This document shows, piece after piece, positions 42,177-43,481 of a DNA stretch of 64,000 nt (position 1 is the stretch's first letter; each line of letters begins with the position of its first letter). Source of the DNA: Motilimonas eburnea (lineage in GTDB: Bacteria > Pseudomonadota > Gammaproteobacteria > Enterobacterales > CBDFNC01); the NCBI RefSeq assembly GCF_021295345.1, contig NZ_JAIMJB010000007.1:124001-188000 (forward strand), in the 5' to 3' direction. Below the pieces are notes generated by a model, which saw only the letters and a list, made by a program, of their open reading frames with translations, made no database searches and was not told the DNA's origin. The position numbers and the translations under genes are program-made.

Positions 42177-42644
42177 ATGAATAAACAGGTTGAACTATAT
42201 ACGGATGGATCTTGCCTAGGCAATCCAGGTCCAGGTGGTTATGGTGTGGTGATGAAATACCTTGGCCACCAAAAAGAGTTGTCACAAGGCTATGAACTCA
42301 CCACCAATAACAGAATGGAGCTACTGGCTTGCATTAAAGGCCTAAACGCCCTGACCCGCCCTTGCAAAGTGGTGTTAACGACCGATAGCCAATATGTTAG
42401 GCAAGGTATTACCAGCTGGATCCACGGTTGGAAAAAGCGTAACTGGCAAACAGCGAGCAAAGCACCGGTAAAAAATGTTGATCTATGGCAACAACTTGAT
42501 GCGGCAAGCCAACAACATGACATAGACTGGCGATGGGTGAAGGGACATTCAGGACACCCTGAAAATGAACGTTGTGATGAGTTGGCACGTTCAGCAGCAG
42601 AATCAGACAATCTAGAGGTTGACCAAGGATACATACCCAATTAA
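42177..42644 (+). CDS. rnhA: Ribonuclease HI
   Basis: RnhA cuts the RNA strand of RNA-DNA hybrids. At 155 residues it equals the E. coli enzyme. The acidic active site is complete: Asp10 (YTDGSC), Glu48 (NNRMELLA), Asp70 (TTDSQYV) and Asp134 (ERCDELA). The last four codons and the stop lie inside a 25-bp-stem hairpin (42633-42687). The extreme C-terminus (GYIPN) therefore seems to derive from an inserted repeat and differs from relatives. It is divergent from dnaQ and convergent with the yafS-like gene. Confidence 0.97.
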
Positions 42645-42687
42645 CTTGAAGATGCCTATTTCAGGCATCTCCAGGTTGATTGGGTAT
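42633..42687. repeat. Long hairpin element at the end of rnhA
   Basis: Bases 42633-42657 pair with 42663-42687 over 25 positions, with 22 Watson-Crick pairs, two G-T pairs and one mismatch. The loop is ATTTC. The outer ends read ATACCCAAT and ATTGGGTAT. There is no T run on either side, so it is not a typical terminator. The wording resembles palindromic repeats beginning TATACCCAA seen in other gammaproteobacteria (from memory). It overlaps the rnhA stop codon. Confidence 0.75.
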
Positions 42688-42725
42688 AACCGCTTCCCGT
42701 AAACGCATGATGGCAATTTGGCGAA

Positions 42726-43481
42726 CTACCACTTCTCTTTTTTTGCATTGGGCTCAGAGCCGTGACAATTGGCAAAAGGAGTGGCCGTTAATATCGGCCT
42801 TTTTAAACGCCACTTCTCTTTGATTGGCGTGATTGGCCGAGTCGATTTCCGGGCGACAATAAAGTAGTTATCACACAAAACGGGGAAAAAACGTTGTCCG
42901 GTTTTTTCATACCAATCAAGCTTTTCATTACGCGCCACGGAAAATCCAAAGCCAAACTTTTCATCGGCTAAGATCTCAAATCCCAACAGATGTAGCCAAT
43001 CGCGAATTCGCGCAGGGGTAAACATACGGCTGTGATTAACCCAAGGATTGCGGCTAAAGGGGATATATTGGCTTAAGCCATGCCAGCTCACCGGGTTAAA
43101 GCCACTGAGTAAAAGAAAGCCATCAGCCGTCAACACTCGCTCTATTTCCCGCAGCATTTGGTGAGGATCTTGTACAAAATTGATACCATGAGCCAGCAAA
43201 CAGACATCAATGCAGGATTCCTGCAAAGGTAAAGCATGGCTTAAAGCGATTAATCCTGCTGATGAGTGTTCACGAGAAATATTGACTTGGTGGCGGATGG
43301 TGCAACTGCAAGTATTGAGCTGGGCACTCAACTGCCCCAGTTTGATGAGATGATAACCAAACAGCTGCGGGCACCACTTATCTAATCTTTGTTGCAATTG
43401 CAATTGCAACCATTCGCCGGCAGGTAAATCAGACCATATTTGGGGATCATACACTTTTCGGCTGGTTTTAGCTGGACGCAT
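42726..43481 (-). CDS. yafS: SAM-dependent methyltransferase, YafS-like
   Basis: A 251-residue class I methyltransferase of the methyltransf_11 type. The nucleotide-binding glycine motif is weak, but VCLLAHGINFVQDPHQMLREIERVLTADG near residues 90-118 is the typical post-II/III region (written here as motif positions: LLAHG, LREIERVL, LLLSGFNP). A conserved aromatic stretch SRNPWVNHSRMF follows near 143. E. coli has yafS in the same place between rnhA and gloB, divergent from gloB, which supports the name. The substrate is unknown. An alternative reading as a demethylmenaquinone-type methyltransferase has no support. Confidence 0.8.
   Translation of the reverse strand: MRPAKTSRKVYDPQIWSDLPAGEWLQLQLQQRLDKWCPQLFGYHLIKLGQLSAQLNTCSCTIRHQVNISREHSSAGLIALSHALPLQESCIDVCLLAHGINFVQDPHQMLREIERVLTADGFLLLSGFNPVSWHGLSQYIPFSRNPWVNHSRMFTPARIRDWLHLLGFEILADEKFGFGFSVARNEKLDWYEKTGQRFFPVLCDNYFIVARKSTRPITPIKEKWRLKRPILTATPFANCHGSEPNAKKEKW

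Follow-up and report, generated by a model that had tools for sequence, protein, structure and literature searches.

We report here that the 3' end of rnhA in the marine bacterium Motilimonas eburnea most probably (roughly 0.9) lies in a 53-bp IS630-type MITE, derived from a 266-bp parent by internal deletion, which inserted at a TA in the gene, was at first read through in frame, and later acquired the present stop codon by a C-to-T change. The window, the whole stretch of DNA analyzed, comprises 64,000 nucleotides (assembly GCF_021295345.1, contig NZ_JAIMJB010000007.1, positions 124,001 to 188,000), and all coordinates are those of the window. The case can be read base by base as a very small transposon rewriting the end of a protein, with target, insertion, frame, and later stop all inferable. 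The features at this locus are as follows.

42177..42644, forward strand: rnhA (RNase H1), 155 aa (open reading frame with RNase_H, PF00075, E 2.8e-55).
42632..42633, forward strand: left target-site copy, now CA where TA is expected (flank comparison and inference).
42634..42686, forward strand: 53-bp MITE (the hairpin), left end first, with 49 of 53 bases equal to the commonest short form (copy L144).
42642..42644, forward strand: present rnhA stop TAA, where the consensus element has CAA (C-to-T at 42642, from comparison with the consensus).
42687..42688, forward strand: right target-site copy, TA (flank comparison).
42700..42702, forward strand: inferred old rnhA stop TAA, in frame once the flanks are joined (156 aa, ...GYNRFP).

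The inverted repeat spans 42633-42687, with arms of 25 nt each (42633-42657 and 42663-42687), a 5-nt loop, and 88% complementarity. Folded as RNA, the segment 42610-42710 reached -38.9 kcal/mol, against a mean of -20.0 (standard deviation, 3.0) for shuffled sequences (z -6.2; 0 of 200 shuffles as low), and the long hairpin described in the initial annotation is therefore real. Its left arm holds ATA CCC AAT and TAA, that is, the last codons and stop of rnhA, as that annotation had stated. The mobile unit itself is 42634-42686 (53 bp), with CA immediately to its left and TA to its right; since it starts at 42634, the first base of codon ATA belongs to the target copy, and the element contains the last three sense codons (minus their first base) and the stop. 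The hairpin had also been judged not to be an ordinary terminator, and an intrinsic terminator (a GC-rich stem followed by a T run) was indeed rejected, as no T run follows the stem and a scan of 42400-42900 made no call at it. That scan called a single terminator-like site, in a short stem on both strands at 42783-42799; the downstream neighbor of rnhA is a convergent open reading frame with a methyltransferase domain. REP elements, tagged by GTAG or CGTC, were rejected by inspection, with neither word in the 53-bp consensus or its complement.

The hairpin belongs to a dispersed repeat family. A 63-base hairpin query gave 55 matches (E≤10) in the window's own genome (G000). Because a palindrome is hit on either strand and a long copy at each end, matches outnumber copies; by our own count the family occupies at least 35 distinct places there. 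At E≤0.001, matches numbered 33 in this genome and 45 and 44 in two sister species (G001 and G002), and one G002 copy was 93% identical to the window hairpin over 56 bases. The other 27 of the 30 genomes searched had no match at E≤0.001, including a fourth Motilimonas genome (G003), which had none at E≤0.01 either; judged by sequence matches, the family would have been gained or lost within the genus. All 21 named stretches with the exact 33-base end came from Motilimonas sp. E26 or M. cestriensis MKS20, in a search that may have excluded records from the window's own genome. The genome-wide search proposed in the initial annotation thus bears out an inserted palindromic repeat that now encodes the C terminus, in agreement with the departure of RnhA at the hairpin base and with empty sites for sister copies (both below); ordinary coding sequence conserved at rnhA in relatives and absent elsewhere, named there as the opposite outcome, is not what was found.

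Short copies were collected within the loci examined as pairs of ends with ≤2 substitutions lying 36 to 75 bp apart (27 rows, less the chance pair L164), a scan that missed at least one more degenerate copy (L006). Of these 26 copies, 15 are exactly 53 bp long, and their consensus (copy L144, chosen by eye) is TACCCAATCAACTTGAAGATGCATGTTTCAAGCATCTCCAGGTTGATTGGGTA, to which the window copy is identical at 49/53. Used as a query against the 394 genomes of the order, L144 found matches in 13 (E≤1e-6), including six outside Motilimonas over nearly its whole length. Matches to the arms often lie about 237 bases apart and delimit a 266-bp element, as at L013:1263-1528, full-length copies of which are common here; the 53-bp copies retain hardly anything of this parent beyond its two terminal inverted repeats. 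The family is short (53 and 266 bp) and dispersed, has terminal inverted repeats, and carries no transposase gene, as expected of a MITE. A transposase remnant in the 266-bp element was looked for and rejected (best tblastn E 0.43).

Movement is recorded in filled and empty sites. Copies were compared with 40 stretches representing part of the G002 genome, flanks were joined by eye, and three sites were read out. At one 265-bp copy in G001, the joined flanks equal G002 exactly at the junction; at two 53-bp copies in G001, they agree with G002 in length and differ from it by some substitutions. All three pairs fit a duplicated TA, with the element spanning TACCC to GGGTA; the target-site duplication is thus seen at three sites elsewhere, and the left copy at rnhA is CA. 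The flank match of L058/L117 with L128 is among those outside the three pairs read out. Two further sites (L061 and L064) are filled in both G001 and G002.

At rnhA, removal of the element and one target copy yields an RnhA of 156 aa ending GYNRFP, the length found in G001 and G002. The RnhA proteins of G001 and G002 (156 aa) end GYLDSL and that of G003 (161 aa) ends GYLSDNSPSAR, whereas the window protein ends GY/IPN (the slash marks the hairpin base). An alignment of RnhA C termini, also proposed in the initial annotation, accordingly has all three sister genomes departing from the window protein at the hairpin boundary, right after the shared GY. The residues before GY vary as well, and comparison of 24 loci showed that the tail generally differs, which means that the boundary by itself is no proof of insertion. 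That the hairpin replaces the end of rnhA holds insofar as the C terminus now lies in the hairpin; the former end seems instead to have been displaced, the in-frame stop for the joined flanks standing at 42700-42702.

The consensus element placed at the same site gives an RnhA of 170 aa with an 18-residue tail, IPNQLEDACFKHLQVDWV, whose stop is built from the element end and the duplicated TA. Because the consensus has CAA and the window TAA, the present stop is attributed to C-to-T mutation at 42642. The loci examined contain 113 distinct ends, of which 108 have C at this position, 4 have T, and 1 has A; the window copy has the only T among left-type ends. The other three T cases come from long copies, at their right-type ends, and two of these cases are at orthologous sites. 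The stem pair at the stop mutation is retained as G-U.

We infer the following course of events. A non-autonomous 53-bp IS630-type transposon, already in its short form and moved by an IS630 transposase acting in trans, would have inserted at, and duplicated, a TA that lay four sense codons ahead of the original rnhA stop. The left target copy would later have changed from T to C (one substitution is assumed), which would be synonymous (Tyr TAT to TAC). The frame would at first have read through the element into the tail predicted from the consensus, and the later change of CAA to TAA would have produced the present stop, leaving an RnhA of 155 aa against the ancestral 156. The new tail is most likely neutral, because the RnhA C terminus varies among relatives. 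Counting against this reading, the left target is CA, and the sister sequence past the rnhA stop is too diverged for base-by-base alignment and so supplies no clean empty allele at rnhA.

The affiliation with IS630 rests on the left end. In a search of 5,426 E. coli genomes with the 266-bp element, its first 32 to 34 bases matched an IS630-family element end in 22 genomes (all five rows examined were IS630); the match was weak (E about 0.3) and served as a lead. The insertion sequence (IS) of E. coli HH107 encodes an intact 343-aa transposase with DDE_3, and its end has 23 of the 24 bases of the MITE left end; of the 394 genomes of the order, 53 have a homologue of this transposase (E≤1e-10). 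A survey of IS ends covered 12 loci, with 300 random 280-bp sequences as a control (mean, 12.8; maximum, 17). In two IS630-family elements from other genera (L170 and L172), one end reproduces the MITE left end in full (24/24), and the opposite ends (15/24 and 17/24) are within chance; the better end of the 10 further loci scored 18 to 21 of 24 bases in five and 15 to 17 in five. For its left end, then, the element matches autonomous IS630-family elements, as an IS630-type MITE should. No IS630-type transposase was found in the four Motilimonas genomes (draft assemblies), either as DDE_3 (E≤0.001) or as an HH107-type homologue (E≤1e-10), and hence no autonomous IS630 partner in the same genome (0 of 4 drafts); such a partner need not persist. 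The 63-base hairpin query also matched, by one arm, eight plasmid records from Klebsiella and Salmonella (E 0.003 to 0.03), three of them annotated as IS630 transposase.

The 266-bp parent matches 43 of 394 genomes and 18 of 115 genera of the order (E≤1e-6; many matches are partial, and two were scored per genome as a rule). It occurs in six records of the plasmid collection (Pseudoalteromonas, Photobacterium, and Catenovulum); no phage record of the collection matched at E 1e-5. An alignment (A1) of 21 near-full-span copies from 14 genomes, two from Motilimonas and 19 from 12 other genomes, revealed a three-way junction common to all copies (88 pairs, 47 of which changed on both sides). Junction cells were paired in 96.8%; shuffles gave 82.5%, none of 500 reaching the observed value, and sliding gave 32 to 42%. 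The statistic is somewhat favored by drawing the junction from the same alignment and by finding the copies with a palindromic query. The consensus energy was -103.5 on the given strand versus -84.3 on the other, and 17 of the 21 copies likewise folded more stably on the given strand. With both folds taken together, G-U filled 81 cells and A-C 34; within the 67 pairs that the two strand folds share, G-U was present in 18 pairs (36 cells) and A-C in 16 (22 cells). The energies and the excess of G-U over A-C in the combined folds favor the given strand as that of any selected RNA; the near-even G-U and A-C in the shared pairs speak against it.

This conserved junction is the less expected part of the findings and deserves its own study, as it poses the question of selection on structure versus self-correction of a palindrome; conservation of the parent stems could possibly reflect either selection or template-switch correction. 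Selection of the three-way-junction fold itself, as RNA or extruded DNA, across many marine gammaproteobacterial genera, with the 53-bp hairpins as minimal passengers keeping only the ends, is a tentative proposal against which we would lean. As separate observations, the right half of the parent (query 125-266) matches alone at many places in G000 to G002 at about 70 to 72% identity, and a 51-base core (query 161-211) is 82 to 85% identical in six other genomes of the order; such lone matches may indicate modules exchanged between MITE types.

The 266-bp parent might have inserted at rnhA and then been reduced in place to the base of the cruciform by loss of its inner arms. Full-length parents are common here, and 11 of the 26 short copies have other lengths (42 to 56 bp, two of them 54 bp), some with another center, so deletions have probably occurred more than once; the window copy, nevertheless, has exactly the length of the dominant 53-bp subfamily (15/26), and we consider loss in place unlikely. 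A changed center was found in L002, L111, L112, L003, and L004, and the odd lengths and centers point to recurrent deletion or to template switching within the palindrome. Three copies of 53 bp have an altered center (L111:1475, L112:1504, and L002:1504); L111 has two arms of one type, an arrangement that template switching within a palindrome would produce.

As to what the hairpin does at rnhA, the initial annotation had suggested that it may protect the mRNA end. Retention for rnhA function, as a 3'-end stabilizer of the mRNA or a processing site, would fit a stable, nearly perfect stem at the transcript end, in which C pairs with G where the consensus has mismatched A and A, the mutated stop position still pairs as G-U, and the sense-strand stem is stronger than the consensus (-33.8 versus -31.5 kcal/mol). 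ERIC elements at gene 3' ends are reported to alter transcript levels in Yersinia (excerpts of PMC10969869 and PMC2229807), yet the effect described there is destabilization of upstream transcripts, the opposite of protection. The rnhA loci of G001, G002, and G003 lack the hairpin, moreover, and short copies do not favor gene 3' ends (3 convergent, 10 divergent, and 13 tandem; n=26), by a crude call of the longest open reading frames of ≥90 codons for 26 short copies with L006 in place of L088. Seven short copies overlap an open reading frame, two on its 3' side (rnhA and a 109-codon frame at L108) and five on its 5' side, where start codons are uncertain. On the antisense strand, the window stem is weaker than the consensus (-30.2 versus -32.0 kcal/mol), and the stem energy differences do not separate selection from chance or palindrome correction. 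Neither the context of the 26 short copies nor the stem energies gave evidence of a role at rnhA; functional retention is improbable.

A chance or locally grown palindrome, though template switching can make imperfect palindromes perfect, is virtually ruled out by the fold (z -6.2), the genome-wide copies, the 93% identity to a G002 copy, and the empty sister sites.

As an event, the insertion is ordinary: the element works like ERIC/RU-1, of which a similar kind of event is known, and is not ERIC by sequence. According to excerpts of PMC2759123, ERIC/RU-1 elements insert at TA, have open frames through the element, and are found fused to gene 3' ends; in ECA3499, as described there, an RU eliminated the normal stop, and a new stop arose by point mutation, a precedent for the stop of the window copy. 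ERIC, IRU, and RU-1 (MITEEc1 and MITEPlu5) thus resemble the element as short palindromic MITEs with a TA target, an open frame, and 3'-end fusion, and TATACYC ends are shared with ERIC; ERIC is 127 bp (MITEPlu5, 123 bp), against 53 and 266 bp here. The element ends agree with one ERIC copy at 14 to 16 of 24 bases, within chance, and membership in ERIC was rejected, since a 44-base ERIC query matches 5,373 of 5,426 E. coli genomes and no ERIC was among the five rows examined of the 22 E. coli records matched by the 266-bp query. The ERIC-like Photorhabdus MITE MITEPlu5 has been linked to CCC-type IS630 elements (excerpts of PMC6267812); in line with this published link, the ends of some IS630 elements (L176, L177, and L178) resemble the right ERIC end (E. 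coli copy L168) at 19 to 20 of 24 bases.

Other likenesses are more distant. RUP of pneumococcus is a MITE proposed to be moved at TA by the IS630-Spn1 transposase (excerpts of PMC2229807); likened here by description only, it differs in length (107 bp) and host group. Rickettsia palindromic elements are palindromic with open frames, and in-frame fusions are mentioned for them (excerpts of PMC10969869; table in PMC2229807), a resemblance to the palindromic repeat with an open frame that is likewise one of description. The Rfam family V_AS5 (RF02818, Vibrio) matched the whole hairpin weakly on the minus strand, with CCCAA and CAAC-UG-AG-UGC letters in common; membership was rejected at 23.1 bits against a gathering score of 96, as were all Rfam matches, each far below its gathering score. 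In the literature searched, which did not extend to ISfinder, the strings of the element ends did not occur, nor did a paper on IS630 with a MITE in Vibrio and Shewanella; no title or abstract start among the matches listed described the family. The main text of a Motilimonas genome paper (PMC13182010) contains neither MITE, transpos*, nor insertion sequence.

The short subfamily suggests that an IS630-type MITE reduced to little more than two inverted repeats can still spread, which bears on the minimum substrate for IS630-type elements. Two single loci may be added. At L201 (G000:C55:34988-35061), an element end stands back to back with a complete short copy, with TATA common to both. At L024:1502, a lone right-type end lies just past the stop of a 271-aa open reading frame with, by inspection, a C-terminal J-domain-like region.
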